Assembly (NCBI GenBank): GCA_905235065.1
Contig: CAJOJR010000015.1
Span: forward strand, 1-42,564
DNA: 42,564 nt
Origin: an uncultured Bacilli bacterium
GTDB taxonomy: Bacteria > Bacillota_I > Bacilli_A > RF39 > UBA660
Reading direction: 5' to 3'
This document shows, one piece after another, positions 784 to 27,240 of this stretch. The notes beneath the pieces are model-generated. The model saw only the letters and a list, made by a program, of their open reading frames with translations, was not told where the DNA came from and searched no databases. The translations under genes were made by a program, and so were the position numbers. Each line of letters begins with the position of its first letter. Within the stretch, counting starts at the first letter, position 1.

Positions 784-1473
784 ATGAAGAAACATGGTAA
801 AAATTATGTGGAAGCTTCAAAATTAGTTGATAAATCAAAAGTTTATTCAGTTGATGAAGCGCTAAAAACTTTAAAAAGTTTGAAGAAAAGAAATTTTGAT
901 GAAACTGTTGAAGTAGCTCTTAAATTAAATATAGATGCTAAGAAAACAGATATGAGCATTAGAAATTCAGTTGTATTACCTAATGGTACTGGTAAATCAA
1001 AAAAAATCTTAGTTGTTACTAAAATGGCTGCTAAAGATGCTAAAGAAGCTGGTGCTGATTATGTAGGAGATATGGATATGATTGAAAAAATTGAAAAAGA
1101 AAATTGGTTCGATTTCGATGTAATCGTAGCTACTCCTGATATGATGGCTGCATTAGGTAAAATAGGTAAGATTTTAGGACCTAAAGGTTTAATGCCAAAT
1201 CCTAAACTTGGAACTGTCACAACTAATGTAAAAACTGCAATTGAAAACATCAAAAAAGGTCAAGTTGAATATAAGAATGATTCTTACGGAAATGTTCATG
1301 CATTATTTGGAAAATTATCTTTTAGTGAAGAAGCTTTAAAAGAAAACTTAACTACAATAGTTAAAGAAATCATTAAAAATAAACCAAATGGTGTTAAAGG
1401 GACATTTATTAAGAATATAAGTATTTCTTCAACAATGAGTCCAGGTTTAAAAATTGATGTTAATGAATTTTAA
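784..1473 (+). CDS. rplA: 50S ribosomal protein L1
   Basis: MKKHGKNYVEA...GKIGKILGPKGLMPNPKLGTVT, L1 signature. Confidence 0.97.
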   Translation: MKKHGKNYVEASKLVDKSKVYSVDEALKTLKSLKKRNFDETVEVALKLNIDAKKTDMSIRNSVVLPNGTGKSKKILVVTKMAAKDAKEAGADYVGDMDMIEKIEKENWFDFDVIVATPDMMAALGKIGKILGPKGLMPNPKLGTVTTNVKTAIENIKKGQVEYKNDSYGNVHALFGKLSFSEEALKENLTTIVKEIIKNKPNGVKGTFIKNISISSTMSPGLKIDVNEF

Positions 1474-1500
1474 GAAGCATGTATATGCTTCTTTTTTGTT
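1471..1500 (+). terminator. Intrinsic terminator after rplA
   Basis: aagaagcat-gta-tatgcttctt followed by a T run. Confidence 0.8.
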
Positions 1501-1541
1501 TGTTTAAATGATATAATAAAGATGATAATAAGGAGAAACTT

Positions 1542-1706
1542 ATGAATAAAATATTTAGTGTTTTAGATATTAGCGGGCCCGGGATTCCAAAAAGGCCTAC
1601 CACAATATCTGATAGCACAATTATAATAGGAATAGCAGTAGCTGTTATAATAATTATTGTAGTGGCTGTATCAATTAAACTTATTAACAAAAAGAAAAAG
1701 CAGTAG
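1542..1706 (+). CDS. 54-aa single-pass membrane protein, not in the ORF track
   Basis: SD aaggag at 1530-1535; ATG 1542 to TAG 1706: MNKIFSVLDISGPGIPKRPTTISDSTIIIGIAVAVIIIIVVAVSIKLINKKKKQ. Stop is 8 nt before the next start. Confidence 0.75.
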   Translation: MNKIFSVLDISGPGIPKRPTTISDSTIIIGIAVAVIIIIVVAVSIKLINKKKKQ

Positions 1707-1714
1707 GTATAAGT

Positions 1715-2767
1715 ATGAGAATATTAAATGTATTAAAATCAAAAAATATTGCTTGTGGATACTTATATTTTTATGCCCACTTTATAACTGAGATAGCCTG
1801 TTTCTATTTTTTATCAAAAGTCACAAGTGGTTCAAACTTTATTTGGTTAATACCATTTATTTATGATGGCCTTGCATTTGTACCACAAAATTTAATTGGT
1901 TATATTAATGATTTAAAGCCAAAACTAAATACAGGATTAATTGGTGCTATATTGATGGCGCTTGCTTATGTATTTTACATATTAGGTTTTAATGTAATAA
2001 TTCCTCTAATTGTAATTGCTATTGGAAATGCTTTTTTACATGTCAGTGGAGCTGAAAATACTTTAAGGGTTAGTGAGGGGAAACTTGCTCATTCGGCCAT
2101 ATTTGTTGGTGGTGGATCTTTTGGTGTTATAACTGGTAAACTTTTAGCATCTACAAGCATTAATCCTATAATAATGATACCTTTAATTTTAACAATAATG
2201 CCTTTTGTATTACTTGCTGATACATATAGAGATTATAGTAAGAAAGAGACAAAATTTGATTATGCAAATAAAAAAGTATCCCCTTACTTAATTGTTATAC
2301 TTTCTATATTTGTAGTTATAGTAAGAGGATATATGGGATATGGAATACCAACAAGCTGGAATAAGACAGTTCTCCAAACAGTGTTACTCTTTGTAACTAT
2401 GGGAATAGGTAAATGTTTAGGGGGAATATTGTCAGATGCCTATGGTATAAGACGGGTTGGTATAATAAGCACACTTTTAGCAATACCATTTTTATGCTTT
2501 GGAGATGATTTAATGGTTGTCTCTTTAATAGGGGTAATGATGTTTTCTATGACTATGTCAATAACACTAGCATTACTTGCAAGCATATATAAAGATAAAC
2601 CTGGTCTTGCTTTTGGATTTACAACAATAGGTTTATTCTTAGGAACAGTACCAATATTCTTTATGACTATAACAAGTAAATTTGCAAATATATTTATGAT
2701 AATAATAATGTCAATAGTTTGTTCATTTATATTAGGAAGTATAATTAAAAAGGAGAGTAGATTATGA
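1715..2767 (+). CDS. MFS-like polytopic membrane transporter
   Basis: 350 aa with many TM helices; MFS-like loops such as GGILSDAYGIRRVG. Confidence 0.75.
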   Translation: MRILNVLKSKNIACGYLYFYAHFITEIACFYFLSKVTSGSNFIWLIPFIYDGLAFVPQNLIGYINDLKPKLNTGLIGAILMALAYVFYILGFNVIIPLIVIAIGNAFLHVSGAENTLRVSEGKLAHSAIFVGGGSFGVITGKLLASTSINPIIMIPLILTIMPFVLLADTYRDYSKKETKFDYANKKVSPYLIVILSIFVVIVRGYMGYGIPTSWNKTVLQTVLLFVTMGIGKCLGGILSDAYGIRRVGIISTLLAIPFLCFGDDLMVVSLIGVMMFSMTMSITLALLASIYKDKPGLAFGFTTIGLFLGTVPIFFMTITSKFANIFMIIIMSIVCSFILGSIIKKESRL

Positions 2768-2904
2768 TAAAAAGTATATTTAATGAGCTTTACATATCAA
2801 ATGACAAATTTGTTTTTTATAGTTATATATTTGTTATAATAGTTTTGATAATATTATCTATCATAATTGGATATAAGGAAGTAAAGAAAAATGAATCTAA
2901 ATGA
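2764..2904 (+). CDS. 46-aa small membrane protein, not in the ORF track
   Basis: ATGA overlap with the upstream stop; MIKSIFNELYISNDKFVFYSYIFVIIVLIILSIIIGYKEVKKNESK; overlaps the next CDS start at 2891. Confidence 0.7.
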   Translation: MIKSIFNELYISNDKFVFYSYIFVIIVLIILSIIIGYKEVKKNESK

Positions 2905-3241
2905 TTTACCTTATATAATGGCTAGATGCTTAATATTAACAATAATCATTGAAGTTGGTATTGCTATAATACTTGGTTACAGAAAAAAAGATTTGATAAA
3001 TGTATTACTTGTTAATATTATGACTAATCCAATAGTTGTAACTGTACCATTATATTTTAATGTAAAATATGGTTTATTAGAAAGAAATATAGCCTTATTA
3101 ATACTAGAATTATTAACGGTATTTGTTGAAGGATATATTTATAAAAAGTATTTATCAAAGAGAAAAATCAACCCATATATACTATCGTTAATACTAAATG
3201 CTTCCTCATATTTAATTGGGGTGGTTATAAATTATTTATAA
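2891..3241 (+). CDS. 116-aa polytopic membrane protein
   Basis: Several hydrophobic helices; overlaps the 46-aa ORF by 14 nt. Confidence 0.75.
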   Translation: MNLNDLPYIMARCLILTIIIEVGIAIILGYRKKDLINVLLVNIMTNPIVVTVPLYFNVKYGLLERNIALLILELLTVFVEGYIYKKYLSKRKINPYILSLILNASSYLIGVVINYL

Positions 3242-3254
3242 AAGGAGAAAAGAT

Positions 3255-4427
3255 ATGAAAAAAATATTTTATTTAATAATAGGGGTTTTAATGTCTATTC
3301 CATTATTTGTGAAGGCGGATATGGGTTCACCTATGATAGAAACGTATAAAGCTTCAATAAAAAATCCAGAAGGTGCACATGTATACAAATATGATTCTGA
3401 CAGACGTAAATATTTAGTTACAAGCGAAGTGTTACCTTATGGTAAAGAAATAACAGTTTGGTATGAAGAAGAAGGTTATGCGCATATTGAAGAGAACAAT
3501 GGAACTGTAAAATTAACTGATATAACCCCTGTTGTAAAGAATTATAGTGTAAATTTAAAAGATTTATTGCCAAGTGATTCTGCAATAGTTTTAGTTGACC
3601 AAGAAATAAAAAAAGGTCCAGCAGAAGCATATGATGGTACTGGAACAGTAATTCCTGCTGGTACTAAAATTTCAATAAGATTTTTTGATTCTGTCGCCAA
3701 AGAATCTGATCACTGGGTTTATGTTGAATATAATGGGGTAAAGGGATTTATAGATACATTAGGTGCTAAAATAGCTTATGGTAAAATAAACGATCAACAA
3801 TACATGACTAATAAGCTTACTGTTGTAAAAGATCCAAAGACTGGTGAGGAAATAAAAAAGATTAATGTAAATACAATTATAAAAGGTGAAGTATATGTCG
3901 TTGATCCATGGAGTCGATCTTACTATTTAATATGTGATGATTTTTCGGGGCTTGTACTTGAATTTGATTTAGCAGTAAAAAATGATGAACCAATAAAATA
4001 TACAATTTTACAAGACATGAATATATTTGAAACTATTGATGAAGATGCTGAAGTTGTTGGAACCATAACAGAAGGAACAGTTATTAATGCAATATATCAA
4101 TTCGAAGATAAAGGATTTTTGGGTATATATTATGAAAAAGGCAATATAAAAGGTTGGGTAACTCCAACATATGATATGAATTCTAGTTCATGGCATCAAT
4201 ATATAGAATTATATGCTGACTATGAAAAAGAGAATCTAGATTATTATTTATCCCAAAATGAAGAGGTTTCTAGCGAAGAAGATATTTATTATGAAGAAGA
4301 TGAGCCACAAAGTTATAAAAATCCAAAAGAGACTCTTTATATATGTATAGGTATAGGGTTTATTATTTGTGTAACTGGTGGAGTGATTATAGCATTAGTA
4401 AATAAAAAGAAGAAAGATAAAAAGTAA
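3255..4427 (+). CDS. Membrane-anchored extracellular protein with bacterial SH3-like repeats
   Basis: N-terminal signal peptide MKKIFYLIIGVLMSIPLFVKADMG, SH3b-like segments, C-terminal TM and KKKKDKK tail; SD aaggag. Confidence 0.8.
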   Translation: MKKIFYLIIGVLMSIPLFVKADMGSPMIETYKASIKNPEGAHVYKYDSDRRKYLVTSEVLPYGKEITVWYEEEGYAHIEENNGTVKLTDITPVVKNYSVNLKDLLPSDSAIVLVDQEIKKGPAEAYDGTGTVIPAGTKISIRFFDSVAKESDHWVYVEYNGVKGFIDTLGAKIAYGKINDQQYMTNKLTVVKDPKTGEEIKKINVNTIIKGEVYVVDPWSRSYYLICDDFSGLVLEFDLAVKNDEPIKYTILQDMNIFETIDEDAEVVGTITEGTVINAIYQFEDKGFLGIYYEKGNIKGWVTPTYDMNSSSWHQYIELYADYEKENLDYYLSQNEEVSSEEDIYYEEDEPQSYKNPKETLYICIGIGFIICVTGGVIIALVNKKKKDKK

Positions 4428-4453
4428 TTATCATAAGATGATTACTTTTTTAA
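4424..4453 (+). terminator. Intrinsic terminator after the membrane operon
   Basis: aaagtaattatc-ataa-gatgattacttttttaat. Confidence 0.75.
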
Positions 4454-4504: not shown

Positions 4505-4613
4505 ATCGATGAAGAAAAGAAGTCCCCAAAGACAGTAGGTACAAACATAAATCCTACCGAGGTGAAATCTTATATAACGTTTATAAGCTTTCCCTTGGGA
4601 AAGCTTTTTCTTT
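4505..4613 (+). promoter_or_regulatory. L10 leader (autoregulatory r-protein leader) with terminator-like hairpin
   Basis: agtccccaaagacagtaggt...cctaccgaggtgaaat followed by aagctttccc-ttgggaaagcttttt; typical L10_leader layout before rplJ. Confidence 0.88.
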
Positions 4614-4637
4614 ATTAATCAAAAAAGGAGGATATAT

Positions 4638-6261: not shown

Positions 6262-9200
6262 GTGGCATACAAAATAAAGAAATTTGGTGACCATACTGAG
6301 AGAAGATATTATGGTTCTTCTCGTAACACGTTGGAACTTAGCAATTTGCTAGAAATTCAAAAGAGTTCTTTTGAAAGATTCTTAAAGGAAGGAATAAAAG
6401 AAGTTTTCGATGATGTTTTCCCTGTTGAAAGTTTTTCAGGTTCATTATCACTAGAATTCGGTGATTATTCTTTTGATGAGCCTAAATATTCAGTTAAGGA
6501 AAGCAAGGAAAGAAGAGTTAGTTATGCTGCTCCATTAAAAGTTCAAGCAAGACTTTTCATAAACGAAACTGGTGAAGTTAAGGAACAAGAAGTATACCTA
6601 GGTGATATGCCTTTAATGACACCAACAGGATCATTTATTATTAATGGTGTAGAAAGAGTTATTAACTCTCAATTAGTTCGTTCTCCAAGTATTTATTTCA
6701 AAAATGAAGTAGATAAAAATGGTAGAAACTTAATTAAAAGTGAAATAATACCTAATAAAGGAACTTGGCTAGAATTTGAATTAGATGCTAGAAATATTTT
6801 CCATGTAAGAATTGATAGAACAAGAAAAGTTACAATGACAACTTTACTTAGAGCTTTAGGGTTATCTTCTGATGAAGATATCATTAAAGTATTTGGTGAA
6901 GATGAAATCATAACTAACACAATAGCAAAAGATTCTACTAGTAATACAGATGAAGCATTAATAGAAATTTATGAAAAATTAAGACCTGGTGAACCAGCAA
7001 CTCTTGATAGTTCTAAAAACCAATTAATAACTAGATTCTTTGATAAATTTAGATATGACCTTGCTAAAGTAGGTAGATATAAATTTAATAGAAAATTAAA
7101 TGTATTAGATAGATTACTTAATAATAAAATTGCTCAAGATATTAAAGATGGTAAAGAAGTAGTTGTTAAAAAAGGAACAGTTATTACTAAAGAAATTCTT
7201 GAATCTATTAGACCACTATTTGAAAATGGTTATGGTGTTCATGAAGTTAAAATTAATGATGAACTAGATCAATATAATAAAGTTCAAGAAGTTTTAGTAT
7301 ATGCTAATGATGGAAGTAATAATATTAAAAGTTATAGGTAACGATCAAACTATTAATGAAAGAAGACTAACTATATCAGATGTATATGCGGCTACATCTT
7401 ACTATTTAAATTTACAATATGGTGTGGGACATTTAGATGAAATAGACCATTTGGGTAACAGAAGAGTTAGACAAAGCGGCGAACTTATTGGTAACCAATT
7501 TAAAGTTGGTATTGAAAGAATGGAAAGAGTAATAAGAGAAAGAATGTCTACTCAAGAAATAGATGCTGTTACTCCTAAAAGTTTAATTAACATTCGTCCA
7601 GTTACTGCTGCTTTAAAAGAATTCTTTGGTAGTTCGCAATTATCAAAATTCATGGATCAAATAAATCCAGTAGCAGAATTAAATGATAAAAGACGTCTTA
7701 GTGCTTTAGGACCAGGAGGATTATCTAGAGATAGAGCTGGTATGGAAGTTCGTGACGTTAACCCATCTCATTATGGAAGAATTTGTCCAATTGAAACTCC
7801 AGAAGGACAAAACATTGGACTTATTACATCACTTGCAAGTTATGCTAAAGTAAATGAATATGGATTTATAATGACACCTTATAGAAAAGTAGTTAATGGT
7901 GTTGTGCAAAAAGATATAGTATATATGACTGCTGATGAAGAAGAAGATTACTATATTTCACAAGCTACAATTAATTGTGATGCAAAAGGTAAAATTCTTG
8001 ATGAGCAAGTACCTGCTAGATTAGGCGGAGAGAACTTAATTATACCAACTGAAAAAGTAAACTATATAGATGTATCTCCTAACCAAATTGTATCTATTAC
8101 AACATCAATGATTCCATTTATGGAACATGATGATGCTAATAGAACACTAATGGGAGCTAACATGCAACGTCAAGCAGTACCTCTATTAAAACCTGAAGCT
8201 CCAATTGTTGGAACAGGTGTTGAATATATGGCTGCTCATGATTCTGGTGCTGTAGTAGTGGCAGAAGAAGATGGTGTAGTTGATTATGTTGATGCTAAAA
8301 AAATAGTTGTAAAAGGTACCGATAATAAGAAACATACATATGAAATGATATCTTATCAAAGAAGTAATGCTGAAACTTGTTATAATCAACATCCGATTGT
8401 TAGAAAAGGGGATGCAGTACGTAAAGATATGGTTCTTGCTGATGGACCTTCAACTGAAAATGGAGAGTTAGCATTAGGACGTAACCTTTTAGTTGCATTC
8501 ATGACATTTAATGGTTATAACTATGAAGATGCTGTAATACTTAATGAAAGAATAGTTAAAGATGATGTACTTACAATGGTACACATTGAAATGAAAGAAA
8601 TAGAGTGTAGAGATACTAAACTTGGACCTGAAGAATTTACAAGAGATATTCCAAATGTTAGTGAAGAGGCACGTAAAAACTTAGGGGAAGACGGTATCAT
8701 TAGAATAGGTACTGAAGTAAAAGAAAATGATATCCTAGTAGGTAAAGTAACACCTAAAGGTGTACAAGAATTATCTAGTGAAGAAAAATTATTACATGCT
8801 ATATTCGGTGAAAAAACTCGTGAAGTTAGAGATACTTCATTAAGAGTTCCACACGGATCTGATGGAATAGTTCATGATGTTCAAATTTTCACTAAAGAAA
8901 ATTCTGATGAACTTCCAGCTGGTGTTTCTAAAATCGTTAGAGTATATCTTATTAAGAAGAGAAAGATGCAAGTCGGTGATAAGATGGCTGGTCGTCATGG
9001 TAACTCTCTTGTATTACCTGAAGAAGATATGCCATACTTGCCAGATGGTACTCCAGTTGATATCATGCTTAATCCATTAGGTGTTCCATCTCGTATGAAC
9101 TTAGGACAAATACTAGAATTACATATGGGTAATGCTGGTAGAAAATTAGGATGTAAGATTTGTACTCCAGTATTTGATAGTGCTTCTATTAAAGATATAG

Positions 9201-9892
9201 AAGATATTACTAAAGAAGCTGGATTAGATGCTGATTATAAAACTGATTTATATGATGGAAGAACTGGTGAAAAATTTGATAAGAGAGTGGCTGTTGGTGT
9301 CATGTATATGATAAGACTTGTTCACATGGTTGATGATAAATTGCATGCTCGTGCTACTGGACCTTATTCATTAGTTACACAACAACCACTTGGTGGTAAA
9401 GCTCAATTTGGTGGACAAAGATTTGGTGAAATGGAAGTTTGGGCATTATATGCATATGGTGCCGCACACGTACTTCAAGAAATATTAACAATCAAATCAG
9501 ATGATGTATTAGGAAGAGTTAAAGTATATGAAGAATTAGTTAAAGGACAACCTGTTGATCAAGCTGGCGTTCCAGAATCATTCAGAGTATTAATTAAAGA
9601 ATTCCAAGCATTAGGACTTGATATTTCAGTAATAACTAAATCTGGAGAAACCAAAGAAATTAAAGATCTTGAAGATGAAGAAGATAAATTAGATACTCCT
9701 GTTACAATTGATGAAATTGATATTAATAAAGAGTCAGAACCGGTTGTTGAACCAGGAGATGAACAAATAGAAGAAGAATATGATGAAAATGACGGGTTTG
9801 AGGATGAAGATGAAGAGGAAATCGAAAAAGATTTTGAAGCATTCGCAAATTCAGGAATTGAAGATAGTTTTGTAGAGGGGAGTGAAGAATAA
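6262..9892 (+). CDS. rpoB: RNA polymerase beta subunit, interrupted by an apparent +1 frameshift near 7333
   Basis: ORF 6262-7341 is the N-terminal third; ORF 7301-9892 continues in the +1 frame. Joined protein ...[27 protein letters not shown]... is continuous RpoB. Confidence 0.93.
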
Positions 9893-12800
9893 TGGAAGTA
9901 AATGATTTTGCAGGAATTCGTATAGGAATTGCATCCCCAGAGAAAATTAGATCTTGGTCTTATGGAGAAGTTAAAAAACCAGAAACTATAAATTATAGAA
10001 CACTTAAACCTGAAAGAGATGGACTATTTTGTGAAAAAATATTTGGTCCAACTAAAGATTATGAATGTTCATGTAAGAAATATAGAAGACTTAGATATAA
10101 AAATGTAATATGTGATAGATGTGGAGTAGAAGTAACTCGTTCTAAAGTTCGTAGAGAACGTATGGGCCATATCGAGCTTGCTTCTCCAGTTGCACATATT
10201 TGGTATACAAAAGGTGTACCTCCTAAAATTGGTCTAGTTCTTGGTATGTCTCCAAGAGACTTGGAAGAAGTAATTTACTTTGTAAGTTATGTAGTACTAG
10301 ATCCAGGAATTACAACTTTAGAGAAAAAACAAATATTATCTGATAAAGAATATAGAGCAAACTATGAAAAATATGGTAATGGCTTTAAAGTTGGTATGGG
10401 AGCTGAAGCTATTAAAACATTATTATCAGAAGTTGATTTGGATAAAGAAATTAAACAAATTAAGAAGGAACTTGAAAAAGCTCAAGGTCAAAAGAAAATT
10501 AGTCTTGTTAAGAGATTAGATTGCTTAAATGCATTTAAAGAAAGTGGTAATAGACCTGAATGGATGATATTAGATGTTCTTCCAGTAATACCACCAGATA
10601 TTAGACCTATGATTCAACTTCCAGGAGGAAGATTTGCTACTAGTGATTTAAATGATTTATATAGAAGAATTATTAATAGAAATAATCGTTTAAAGAAACT
10701 ATTAGAATTAGGTGCTCCTACAATTATCGTACAAAATGAAAAACGTATGCTTCAAGAAGCAGTAGATGCTTTAATTGATAATGGTAGACGTGGAAGAAGT
10801 GTACAAGGTGTAGGAAATAGAGCGTTAAAGAGTTTATCTTCAATGTTAAAAGGTAAACAAGGTAGATTTAGACAAAACTTATTAGGTAAACGTGTTGACT
10901 ATTCTGGTCGTAGTGTTATCGTAGTTGGTCCAAATCTAAAAATGCATGAATGTGGTGTTCCAAAAGAAATGGCTTTAGAGTTATTTAAACCACATGTAAT
11001 TCATGAAATAGTTGAAAGAGACTTAGCTCATAATATAAAAGGTGCTAAAAAATTAATAGATGCACAAGATGAAAGAATTTGGGATATAGTTGAAGATGTT
11101 ATTAAAGAACATCCTGTAATGCTAAACCGTGCACCAACTCTACATAGATTAGGTATTCAAGCGTTTGAACCTAAACTAGTTGGTGGTAAAGCCTTAAGAC
11201 TTCACCCTCTAGTATGTACTGCATTTAACGCAGACTTCGATGGTGATCAAATGGCTATTCACGTACCACTTTCAGAAGAAGCACAAGCAGAAGCAAGAAT
11301 CCTTATGTTAGGTGCTAATAATATCCTAAGTCCAAAAGATGGAAAACCAATTGTTACTCCATCACAAGATATGGTACTTGGTAATTACTATCTAACAATG
11401 GAAGAAGCTGGATTACCTCTAGAAGGACATGCTTATAAGAGTCCAGATGAAGTATTAATGGCTTATGAAAGAAAAGACATAACACTTCATACAAGAGTAT
11501 GTCTACTTGCTAAAACATTTAGACACAAAGTATTTACTGATGATCAAAGAGAAAAGTATTTAGTTACTACTCCTGGTAAAATTATATTCAATGAAATATT
11601 ACCAGATACATATCCTTACTTAAATGAACCAAGTAAAGAGAATATTGAGCATTTAACTCCAGATAAATTTTTCTTAGAAAAAGGAACAAATTTAGTTGAA
11701 GCGGTTAATTAAGAATATGCCTTTAACTGATGCGTTCAAAAAAGGAGATTTGGGAAAAATAATTGCTCAAATATTCAAAAGATATAAAACTACTGAAACT
11801 TCAGTAATGCTTGATAAACTTAAGAATTTAGGTTTCAAACATTCAACACTTGCTGGTATAACATTCTCTTTATCAGATATAACTGATAGTGATGTAAAAC
11901 AAACAGTAATTGATGAAACAAATAAAACAATTGAACAAATTAATAAACAATTTAAACGTGGTTTAATAACAGATCAAGAAAGACATGACAAAGTTGTTAA
12001 ATTATGGTTTGATGCTAAAGATAAAGTTCAAGCAGATTTAGTTGAAAAAGCTTCTAAAGATTTAGAAAATCCACTTAACTTAATCTTTAACTCAGGAGCA
12101 AGAGGAAGTAAAGCACAATTAGTTCAATTATCTGGTATGCGTGGTATCATGTCAAAGACAGATAACTCTTCTGTGGAAATCCCAATCTTAGCTTCATTTA
12201 AAGATGGTCTAGATGTACAAGAATTCTTCTTAAGTACGCATGGATCAAGAAAAGGTACAGCTGATACAGCTCTTCGTACTGCTGATGCTGGTTACTTAAC
12301 TCGTAGACTAGTTGATGTTGTACAAGATGTAATCGTAAGAGAACAAGATTGTGGAACTATTCAAGGTGTAGAAGTATCTGCATTTGTTGATGAAAAGAGT
12401 GGTGCTGTTCTTGAAAGTTTAGGAGAAAGAATTTTAGGTAGATATTCTAATCAAAAAATTATTAATCCTGAAACTAAAGAAGTTATCCTTGAAAAAGGTG
12501 AATTAATAACTGAAGCTATAGTTGATAAAATTGAAAAAGCTGGTATTAAATCAGTTGAAATTAGAAGTATACTTACATGTAAAACAGAAAATGGTGTATG
12601 TTGTAAATGTTATGGTAGAAACCTTGCAACTGGATCAACTGTTGAAGTTGGTGAAGCTATTGGTATTATGGCTGCTCAATCAATTGGTGAACCTGGTACA
12701 CAGTTAACCATGAGAACATTCCATACTGGTGGTGTTGCTGGTGCAGGAGATATAACTCAAGGTCTTCCAAGAGTTGAAGAATTATTTGAAGCAAGAAGTC

Positions 12801-13522
12801 CAAAAGTTAAGGCTACAATTGCTGAAATCAGTGGTAAAGTAACTAAAATATCAGAAGGAGATAAAGGAAAATATAAAATTTATGTTACTAATGATGTTGA
12901 AGTTAGAGAACATGTAACAATGTATAACTCAAAACTTGCTGTTGAATTAAAACAAGAAGTAGAAGCAGGACAACCTTTAACAGAAGGCGCAATTGCTCCA
13001 AAAGAATTACTTGCTGTAACAGATCCAATTACTGTTCAAGAGTATATCTTAAAAGAAATCCAAAAAGTTTATAAATCTCAAGGTGTTGATATGTCTGATA
13101 AACACGTAGAAGTTGTTGTTAAGAGAATGATACCTAAGATGAAAATTGTTGATCCAGGAGATACTACATTCATTGAAGGAACTGCTGTATCAATTAAGGA
13201 ATTTGGTGAGGTTAATAAACCAATTATCATAAGTGGTGGAGTACCTGCTACTGGTAAACCAGTATTACTTGGTATTACTAAGGCATCTCTAGAAACTGAT
13301 TCATTCTTATCAGCTGCATCATTCCAAGAAACTACAAGAATCTTAACAGATGCATCTATAAGAGGAAAAGTTGATCACTTAAGAGGATTAAAAGAAAATG
13401 TTATCCTAGGTAAATTGATAGGTGCTAGAGAGTATTCTGATATTGAATTAGAACTTTCAAAAGAACTAATTAGTGAAGATGCTGCAGAAGCACTAGAAGA
13501 AACATTTATATTAGATAAATAA
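9892..13522 (+). CDS. rpoC: RNA polymerase beta' subunit, interrupted by an apparent frameshift near 11705
   Basis: [16 protein letters not shown] in ORF 1 (9892-11712); ORF 2 (11696-13522) continues [36 protein letters not shown] in the +1 frame. Confidence 0.93.
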
Positions 13523-14059: not shown

Positions 14060-14878
14060 ATGGAAAGTAAAAAGAGTATGCCACCAATATTAATAGTAAT
14101 ATTAACAGTAATTGGTACATGTCTAGTGGGATTTTTGGTATATTATGGAATAAATTATTTTAAAGATGAAGAAACACCTAATAATTCAGTAGATGATAAT
14201 CCACCTAATGTAGTGAGTCCAGTTGGAGAAGAAATAGATTTTCCACAGAAATCAGATGATAGTGTTGCATTAGGAAATTTATCAGAGTATTTAAGCAAAG
14301 AGGTGTTTAAAACAGATTTTAAGAATTTAGAATTTACTAAAAACGGAAATAAATTAGTAATAAGTTGTGAAAAATATTTTGATAAAATACAATCATGTGG
14401 AAGTATAAAAGTTAATATTAATAATGAATTTGATGTAATCATTGGAAAAGAGGAACAAGGTTCGTTCAGTAATGCAAAGGATAAGGATGATTTAATGTAT
14501 GATCCGTTTGATTTGCTTGTTAAGTCATATTATTTCTTCAAAACTAGTAAATATTATGTGGTTTATAATGCATATGAGTATAGTATGAGAGATGATAACA
14601 ATATAAAAATATATAATAATTCCAATGAAGTTTATAATGTTTCTTGGGTAAAGTCCGGTTATTGGTTAAATGAAAACGATTGGCTTAATAACTCCAAAAT
14701 TTTAAACGTTAACCCAGTTATTGTTAATGAAACACTTCATTATGTGCATCAAACAGATACGAGTGCTGGTAATTATGGAATTTTAGTACATTATACAATA
14801 GATTTAAGTAAAGATGTGATACAAGTGACTTTTGTTAAAGAATTCGCTGCATATTATACTGGTGAATATCAAAAATAA
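14060..14878 (+). CDS. Membrane-anchored extracytoplasmic protein, paralog 1
   Basis: N-terminal TM PPILIVILTVIGTCLVGFLVYYG then linker and exported domain; shared NNSVD...GEEIDFPQ and FKNLEFTKNGN motifs with 15405-16187. Confidence 0.8.
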   Translation: MESKKSMPPILIVILTVIGTCLVGFLVYYGINYFKDEETPNNSVDDNPPNVVSPVGEEIDFPQKSDDSVALGNLSEYLSKEVFKTDFKNLEFTKNGNKLVISCEKYFDKIQSCGSIKVNINNEFDVIIGKEEQGSFSNAKDKDDLMYDPFDLLVKSYYFFKTSKYYVVYNAYEYSMRDDNNIKIYNNSNEVYNVSWVKSGYWLNENDWLNNSKILNVNPVIVNETLHYVHQTDTSAGNYGILVHYTIDLSKDVIQVTFVKEFAAYYTGEYQK

Positions 14879-15404: not shown

Positions 15405-16187
15405 ATGGAAGAAAAGAAAAAAGGAATGTCACTAATATTGATAGTAATACTTACAATAATTGGTACATGCTTAGTAGGGTTCCTAGTATGGTACGGTAGT
15501 AGGGTTCCTAGTATGGTACGGAGTAAATTTTTTAAAGGAGAAGAGAAGCCTAATAATTCGGTAGATGAACCAGTAATTCCATCAACAGATACTCCAGTAG
15601 AGGAACCGTCAGATATACCAACAGGTACTGTGGGAGAAAAAATTGATTTTCCACAAGAAGGTGGAGAAAGTGCTTTATTAGATGATTTGCTGGAATTATT
15701 ACCAGAAGAAAAAATAAATGAAAATTTCAAGAATTTAGCTTATACTAAAGATGGTAATATATATAAGTATGATTGTGAAAGTTATGAATCAAAATGTAAT
15801 TTGGTAAAAGTAACAATTAATAATGAAACATCTATAAATACAGTTGGTCATAATGATAGAACTGGAGAAGGATTAAAACTTTATAAAGTAGGGAACTATT
15901 ATATAACTATAACTGAACATGATGGTATTGCAACTTTAAAAGTTTATAACAAAAACAACGAAGTATTATCTGCAGAAGCAACTTCAAGATATTTCATAGG
16001 GAATGATTCATTTCCTACTGAACCAATAATAGTTAATAATAAATTATATTATGTAGAATTAAATGGTGAAATATTAAGCGATGGGACATCTAATTGTAGA
16101 TATGGATATATAGATTTATTAAATGACATTAATTTTGTTAGTATTCAATCATTAAAATTGAAAATAGATGATTATGGTGACAAATAA
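15405..16187 (+). CDS. Membrane-anchored extracytoplasmic protein, paralog 2
   Basis: N-terminal TM LILIVILTIIGTCLVGFLVWYG; shared motifs with paralog 1. Confidence 0.8.
   Translation: MEEKKKGMSLILIVILTIIGTCLVGFLVWYGSRVPSMVRSKFFKGEEKPNNSVDEPVIPSTDTPVEEPSDIPTGTVGEKIDFPQEGGESALLDDLLELLPEEKINENFKNLAYTKDGNIYKYDCESYESKCNLVKVTINNETSINTVGHNDRTGEGLKLYKVGNYYITITEHDGIATLKVYNKNNEVLSAEATSRYFIGNDSFPTEPIIVNNKLYYVELNGEILSDGTSNCRYGYIDLLNDINFVSIQSLKLKIDDYGDK
15472..15521 (+). repeat. 25-bp perfect tandem duplication within paralog 2
   Basis: tagtagggttcctagtatggtacgg x2. Confidence 0.92.
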
Positions 16188-24977: not shown

Positions 24978-27112
24978 CTAGTCATTAGGGTCAATTAAAG
25001 TAAGTGAGACTTTATTCTTATCTTTTAAAATATCTAATACATAGCAATCAACTATATCTCCAACTTTTAATACTTCGTTAGGGTGTTTTATATATTTTTT
25101 AGTTATTTTAGAGATATGAACAAGCCCATCATTTTTAATACCTATATCAATAAATGCTCCAAAGTCAACAACATTTCTAACCGTTCCTTGTAATTTCATT
25201 CCAATTTTTAAATCTTCCAGTTTCAAAATATTTTCTTTTAATATAGGTGCATCATATTGATCTCTAAAGTCTCTTTTAGGTGTTTTTAAAGAATTAATAA
25301 TGTCTTCTAAAGTATAAATATCAGTATTTAGTTCTTTTGATAACTCATTAATATTTGCATTATTTAATACATCTATTAATTCTTTTTTACCAATTAGTTT
25401 AATATCTAGATTTAAAAATTTTAATAATTTATTAGTTACTTCATAACTTTCAGGGTGAATATTTGTTTCATCGAGAAGATTAGATCCATTAATAACTCTC
25501 ATAAATCCGATTGATTGCTCAAATGATTTATCGCTTAACAATTTTTTCTTTATTATTTCATCCCTTGACATTATTTTTCCATTTTCTTCTCTATATTTAA
25601 TTATTTTATCAATATTATTTTTAGTAAGTCCTGAAATATATTTTAAAATGAATGGAGAAGCAGTATTAATATTAACTCCAACATTATTAACAACTTTTGT
25701 AACAATAAAATCTAATGATTCACTTAATTTCTTTTGATTAACATCATGTTGATATTCACCAACACCAATAGATTTAGGATCAATTTTAACTAGTTCATTA
25801 AGTGGGTCTTGAAGTCTTCTAGCAATTGATATTGCACTTCTTTTTTCAACTGTTAAATCAGGAAATTCTTCTATGGCTAGTTTAGAGGCGGAGTAAACAC
25901 TAGCACCTGCTTCAGATACAATTGCATATTTACACTTTTTGATTTCATTGATAGTCTCACTCACCAATTTTTCACTTTCTCTAGATGCAGTTCCATTACC
26001 AATAGCAATAATATCAATATTATATTTATTAATTAATTCTTTTAATAATTCTTTAGATTCATTCCATTCATTTTGTGGTGCGTGTGGATATATAACTTTA
26101 ATATCTAATACTTTAGAAGTGGAAGAGACTACTGCTAGTTTACAACCCGTTCTATAAGCTGGATCAAATCCTAATACAGTTTTATCTTTCATTGGTGGAG
26201 TAAGAAGTAAATGTTCTAAGTTTTCACTAAATACTTTAATAGCTTCATTATCTGATTTTTCAGTTAGTTCACTTCTTATTTCTCTTTCTATACTAGGACT
26301 AATTAATCTTTTATAAGCATCTAAAATAGAGTCTTTTATATAAATATTTACTGGTGAATCTTTCTTAATAATATTTTTTTCTAAAAATGAGATTATTTCA
26401 TCAATATTTAGATTAATATTAACATTTATTACTTTCTCATTTTCCGCTCTATTGATTGCTAAAAGCTTATATATTTAACTGGTTCATTAAAATCATAATA
26501 CATTTCATATGTTTTATTTTCATCATTTGCATTCTTTTTTAATTTAGTTTCTATTATTCCGGTATTAAAAAAGAAACTTCTAATCCATTTCCTATAATAT
26601 GCATTATCACTTATCCATTCAGAAATTATATATTTAGCCCCAGTAATTGCATCTTCATAAGTTTTTACATTTTCATTTAAGAATTTAGATACACTTTTTT
26701 CATCAAATGAAGTGGGGAAACTCATTATGATTTTAGCAAGTGGTTCTAATCCATTTTTAATAGCATCAGTTGCTTTAGTTTTCTTCTTTTCTTTATATGG
26801 TAAATATATATCTTCAACTTCAACTAATTTTTTAGCATTCATTATATTAGATTTTATTTCATCAGTAAGCATCCCTTTTTCATCAATTAATCTAATAGCG
26901 TCTTCTTTCCTTTTTAAAAGATTAGTTTCATATTCATAAGATTCATTTATTTTTCTTATTTGTTCTTCATCCAATCCATTAGTTGCTTCTTTTCTATATC
27001 TTGCGATGAATGGAATAGTGTTTCCTTCGCTTAATAGTTTCAAAGTGTTTTCCACTTGCTTGATTGTTATATTTAAATCAACGCTTAAATTTTTAATAAT
27101 ATCATTATTCAT
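24978..27112 (-). pseudogene. tex: Tex (S1 RNA-binding transcription accessory protein), frame-disrupted near 26460
   Basis: N-terminal ORF (27112-26459) NTIPFIARYRKEATNGLDEEQIR; C-terminal ORF GFDPAYRTGCKLAVV...GVGEYQHDVNQ...S1 domain. Frame lost where xHRxLA(I/M)NR is expected. Confidence 0.85.
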
Positions 27113-27240
27113 ATTAACTCCTTTACATACTAAAAATAATTTTATCAATAAAAAAATTTTAGTTCAAATAAATTAGTAAATAAATGTAAATATTTTTAAT
27201 AATTAATTTTTTATGATAAAATTATTGGTAGGTGATATAA

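Follow-up and report, generated by a model that had tools for sequence, protein, structure and literature searches.

MFS transporters that depend on an obligate single-pass partner have been described in animals. MCT1 is accompanied by basigin, which has an extracellular domain and a single transmembrane (TM) segment with an acidic residue (PMC2409183), and MFSD1 requires GLMP as its partner (PMC6819133). The locus analysed here may encode a bacterial complex in which an MFS transporter likewise needs a partner, as gene neighbourhood and coupling suggest. However, the animal pairs show no detectable sequence relation to it and have neither a four-helix partner nor an extracellular D-motif nor microproteins, and the analogy is a mechanistic one only. 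As for the genomic setting, a few genes at a time invade between the concatenated operons of the secE-rpoBC-str-S10 cluster of Bacilli (PMC8046335). At our locus, a few genes likewise invaded the space between two operons; it differs from those insertions in that a functional module was placed there and the old terminator was left downstream. Our literature search found no publication on the module or on the sequence ADMGPKPS.

The window (the whole stretch of 42,564 nt analysed, from an uncultured Bacilli bacterium) has the following features between rplA and rplJ.

1472-1493, plus strand: terminator-like hairpin directly 3' of the rplA stop (9 pairs, T-run)
1474-4419: inserted segment, from the alignment with locus L107 of genome G144
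1542-1706, plus strand: A54, a 54-aa single-TM protein (ORF translation; homologs in relatives)
1563-1589, plus strand: predicted extracellular D-motif of A54, LDISGPGIP (shared-motif comparison)
1715-2767, plus strand: MFS protein, 350 aa (Pfam MFS_1, AlphaFold2, Foldseek)
2764-2904, plus strand: B46, a 46-aa single-TM protein (counterparts in relatives' loci)
2891-3241, plus strand: C116, a 116-aa four-helix membrane protein (alignments and AlphaFold2)
3255-4427, plus strand: SH3 protein, 390 aa, secreted (Pfam SH3_3; homologs in module loci)
3315-3332, plus strand: D-motif ADMGSP, lying where signal peptidase is predicted to cut the SH3 protein (pattern scan)
~4420-4451, plus strand: ancestral rplKA terminator, now 3' of the SH3 gene (same hairpin in L107)
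4508-4619, plus strand: L10 leader of the next rplJL operon, the module boundary (Rfam RF00557)

All five ORFs lie between rplA and rplJ with the positions and overlaps given in the earlier note, and its description of a translationally coupled operon holds: the MFS and B46 frames overlap in ATGA at 2764 and those of B46 and C116 by 14 nt (from 2891), which suggests coupled synthesis of MFS, B46 and C116. The two small ORFs, which had been missing from the gene list, were found again at equivalent positions of other loci. Between the two nearest relatives (L020 and L021), A54 showed mostly synonymous changes (dS 0.73, dN 0.07); the values were dS 0.34 and dN 0.02 for C116 and dS 0.29 and dN 0.02 for MFS, and B46 had two changes in all, too few for a dN/dS reading. 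With equivalents in other loci and, for A54, a dN well below dS, both small ORFs are, judged by this comparison, real genes, as had been supposed. A promoter consensus scan gave nothing beyond the shuffled expectation and listed no site 5' of A54; a TATAAT at 1512-1517 was noticed by eye only. No Rfam family matched among the five ORFs, and the next element was the L10 leader (55.6 bits, cut-off 44). Elsewhere in the window, rpoB (6262-9892) and rpoC (9892-13522) consist of two ORFs each in different frames, with breaks near 7301-7341 and 11696-11712 that are likely sequence or assembly errors of the MAG, and a tex-like gene on the minus strand (24978-27148) is split in two ORFs. Two related secreted/anchored proteins (14060-14878 and 15405-16187) have a near-identical N-terminal TM segment (LIVILTIIGTCLVGFLV); a relative of them is also encoded 5' of rplK in the same-genus genome (L107).

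By comparison with the nearest genome, the cassette was probably acquired recently. G144 belongs to the same genus (rplA and rplJ ~96% identical), and there rplK-rplA-rplJ-rplL is unbroken and the site is empty. The alignment of the window with L107 is exact up to ...AATGAATTTTAA (1473, rplA stop) and resumes from AAAAGTAATT (4420), with ~2.95 kb in place of ~10 nt. The unbroken order was found in 7 of 10 relatives (those with a locus reaching rplJ), that is in G144 and six more, and the earlier observation that the usual rplKA-rplJL order is interrupted here was thereby borne out. Loss of the cassette in G144 is less likely, because other relatives are also without it at the rplA/rplJ site; no MFS match was found anywhere in the G144 genome. 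The G+C of the inserted segment resembles that of its flanks. The hairpin at 1472-1493 is missing at the matching position of the empty site and by this comparison arrived with the insert. The hairpin behind the SH3 gene had been taken for the cassette's own terminator; this has to be corrected, since in G144 the same hairpin follows rplA directly, which identifies it as the terminator that rplA had in the host before the insertion. Phage or defence cargo was rejected, as searches for a phage, plasmid or defence origin gave no PADLOC, PHROGs, viral-contig or plasmid match. Because the module stands at unrelated places in other genomes, its site in the ribosomal cluster would be without functional meaning. 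At L016 (G020) the module lies ~2.6 kb from rsmC-rpoB-rpoC on the same strand, with rplKAJL on another contig.

Relatives of the MFS protein were found in 6 of 144 other sampled genomes of the family and on 7 named GTDB contigs, most of them from MAGs of rumen or gut; a profile search recovered it in 23 of 296 genomes of the class. C116 adjoins MFS in 22 of these 23 class-wide loci, the exception being L030, where the protein beside the MFS is longer and carries a stretch resembling a signal peptide. On the Clostridia side (a phylum sample of 300 genomes), the same adjacency was seen in four of the five best-scoring loci, and the fifth ends at a contig edge. Many relatives are fragmented MAGs, and TM segments were assigned by a simple hydropathy scan. 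Module-type small TM proteins are present beside most of the class-wide MFS loci. The neighbourhoods, at unrelated chromosomal sites, repeat the gene order MFS, B46, C116, SH3, whereas the place of the A54-type proteins differs from locus to locus. Going by this distribution, MFS and C116 are the ancient core, and B46 and SH3 are limited to the nearest relatives. The neighbourhood search that the earlier note had advised thus revealed strong co-conservation of MFS and C116 (22 of 23 loci) and not homologs occurring singly. Several loci have further genes at or in the module. Directly 5' of it, L020 (666-1964) and L021 (6658-7953) encode a membrane-anchored M14-carboxypeptidase-like protein; L032 (477-2520) has four consecutive motif-bearing TM proteins of 45-57 aa between MFS and C116; and T7SS-like genes were recognised at L024 and L021 (EssC by profile; WXG100-like, YukD-like, PknB-like and PP2C-like ORFs by eye).

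The AlphaFold2 model of the MFS protein (pLDDT 87.9; 7 sequences per job, as for C116) has 12 TM helices and resembles solved MFS transporters in Foldseek (E ~6e-6, TM 0.68; best TM-score up to 0.70). The window protein matched Pfam MFS_1 at E=1.7e-4 with 21.1 bits, below the curated cut-off of 33.4, which its relative in L042 exceeded with 38.2 bits. It has motif-A-like loops, with GGILSDxxGxRR in the second half, and its invariant polar TM residues in the alignment are H22, N105, H109 and R204. On its predicted structure, the protein is a member of the 12-TM MFS fold. SfMCT (6g9x), NorA, OxlT and LmrP have the fold and the motif-A-like loop in common with it, whereas the window protein is 12-17% identical to solved MFS proteins, scores below the MFS_1 cut-off, falls in no NCBIfam subfamily and is tied to C116. 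We infer that it is active in transport; given the MFS_1 score below cut-off, it could also be a non-transporting derivative.

C116 was modelled with a pLDDT of 84.8 and helices at 3-27, 32-60, 62-87 and 95-115. Alignments gave the signature T-x3-E / N-x2-T-[N/Q] / E-x6-E-x3-Y / N-x2-S, and the invariant residues E21, N42, T45, N46, E73, E80, N103 and S106 all fall in predicted helices. No PDB fold matched the model at E<1, and nothing scored above cut-off in Pfam, NCBIfam, PHROGs, PADLOC or the PDB sequences. An N-out/C-out topology is predicted because loops 1-2 and 3-4 are rich in Lys and Arg. The domain was detected in 44 of 392 genomes in the sample of the window's phylum and in 17 of 300 Clostridia-side genomes. 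Many of these domains are the C-terminus of proteins of 240-320 aa that carry a signal peptide and whose mature form begins with ADxGPKPS or ANSAEPPS; in the ADxGPKPS alignment, A, D, G and K never vary and the four-helix signature given above is kept. This architecture (one of the two starts, a secreted domain, a C116-type C-terminus) is found in two large Bacillota families without annotation, which are mostly encoded by stand-alone genes (L053, L054, L057-L059, L064, L065, L067, L069, L072, L073, L077, L080, L091, L092, L098; L063, L094, L096, L097, L099, L100, L102-L106). As fused C116 proteins are also found without an MFS neighbour, C116 has a role independent of this MFS transporter. 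The occurrence of motif and four-helix domain in one polypeptide in two other protein families indicates that they belong together, fused or separate, and this fusion is the strongest argument that both may act together. Docking of the D-motif on the polar cluster of C116 is not claimed, because the positive-inside placement of the loops puts the invariant residues in the centre or the inner half of the bilayer.

The motif itself, [hydrophobic][D/N]x2-6P, is a common N-terminal feature of proteins coded beside MFS and C116. Examples are LDVAPPG (L020), LDVIDPDFP and LDIARP (L017), ADVAAP (L016), LDIVAP (L035), LDVPPLP (L041) and LDAGGP (L101). Among TM or secreted proteins of the module, 45 of 67 carried it, versus 7 of 64 controls (p-value 1.5e-11, odds ratio ~17, both descriptive only because the motif was defined on the same data), and two of the seven control matches are SH3-type module proteins themselves. 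At least one motif protein occurs in 31 of the 34 loci having such proteins, and a few MFS-C116 pairs (L048, L060) have no adjacent one. In some relatives a Cys follows the motif (for example LDVASC). This could be a lipobox, in which case removal of the signal peptide would take the motif away as well. A degenerate AD[MVI]xxP-type pattern, covering the AD-form only, had a single match in the 878-kb assembly, namely the SH3 gene. A genome-wide sorting signal was rejected on this ground for the AD-form as scanned; the single occurrence fits a module-specific latch better.

Within the window, A54 combines the N-terminal LDISGPGIP with a KKKKQ tail and has homologs in L020 (3555-3719), L021 (9536-9709) and L017. 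B46 has no D-motif and represents a second class of small protein, with counterparts in L013-L016 and L020-L025. Matches of the small ORFs to Rv3627c_N, insulin receptor TMD, ETRAMP, EssA and DsbI in Pfam and NCBIfam were below cut-off and were discarded as matches of TM composition. The SH3 protein has a signal peptide, SH3b domain(s), a C-terminal TM segment and a Lys-rich cytoplasmic tail (KKKKDKK); it scored 31.7 bits against Pfam SH3_3 (E=1.8e-7, cut-off 27) and is predicted to bind the cell wall. SH3b (PF08239) wall-binding proteins likewise have the SH3_3 domain, a signal peptide and a membrane anchor, but the predicted mature N-terminus of the window protein starts with the D-motif and its gene accompanies an MFS-C116 pair. 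The charge distribution would orient A54, B46 and the SH3 protein N-out/C-in.

Taken together, we give about an even chance (roughly 0.5) to the reading that the cassette encodes a secondary-transporter complex of MFS, its obligate partner C116 and wall-facing auxiliary subunits. The MFS protein would transport a solute, with C116 as its dedicated four-helix membrane partner; A54, B46 and SH3, each crossing the membrane once and predicted to be N-out, would be auxiliary subunits or partners of the pair. The extracellular D-motif of A54 and SH3, at the membrane face, would serve as a docking latch, and the SH3 ectodomain would either connect the complex to the wall or act as a wall sensor. This reading is favoured by the MFS-C116 adjacency, the clustering of motif proteins around the pair, the C116 fusions, the frame overlaps, the predicted 12-TM fold, the invariant polar residues within helices and the single genomic match of the motif pattern. 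The MFS_1 score below cut-off, the fused C116 proteins that lack an MFS neighbour, the pairs lacking an adjacent motif protein and the possible lipobox speak against it. Both the physical association of MFS, C116 and the small proteins and the role of the motif as a latch are our deductions. Of the earlier proposal of an export or sensing complex with small subunits, the uncharacterised envelope operon and the real small subunits stand, while export or sensing finds only partial support.

MFS and C116 could instead be a maturation or export machine that inserts, processes or exports the D-motif proteins as substrates, not subunits. A locus has between one and four kinds of motif protein, whose ectodomains are unrelated but which all share the N-terminal motif; they resemble clients served by a single handler, and A54-type proteins lack a signal peptide. 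However, the AD-form motif occurs in the window's genome only inside the module, and the fused C116 proteins hold motif and four-helix domain without MFS, which makes this reading unlikely. MFS proteins are not known to act as protein insertases, which also counts against it. A sensor, in which a transceptor-like MFS and wall-binding SH3 subunits monitor the envelope and signal via cytoplasmic tails, would be in line with the SH3b ectodomain, the Lys-rich tails and the small TM proteins; yet in the neighbourhoods compared no signalling gene, whether for a kinase or a regulator or of another type, was conserved with the module, and we regard the sensor as improbable. It might also be that unlinked genes merely share a small inserted segment, given that the arrival in the ribosomal cluster is recent and that loci differ in which of A54, B46 and SH3 they have and in what order. 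This is very improbable, and for the MFS-C116 core it is already contradicted by the association across families and in Clostridia, the frame overlaps and the motif clustering. An accessory role in type VII secretion, suggested by two loci with the module beside T7SS-like genes (L024 1-9300, L021 1-10959) and a weak EssA-like match of A54 (E=0.053; 13.4 bits, below the cut-off of 32.45), has hardly any probability left and was rejected, as EssC exceeded its cut-off in 4 of the 7 genomes of the family that have the module versus 54 of 145 overall, no enrichment, and none was found in the window's own genome (91.7% complete).

Beyond the transporter complex itself, we tentatively consider, at less than even odds, that C116 founds a new family of four-helix membrane domains across Bacillota and that the D-motif, as a new kind of extracellular latch, recruits interchangeable single-pass ectodomain proteins, either in cis (fused, as in the ADxGPKPS and ANSAEPPS proteins) or in trans with MFS, giving a modular envelope complex without known counterpart. 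If these readings are right, Bacillota would have a widespread, unannotated class of envelope complexes that join a transporter to a new four-helix protein and to tiny membrane proteins, which gene prediction can easily overlook. Mutation could then target the invariant residues and the motif directly, and from the fused proteins it would be seen which parts belong together.
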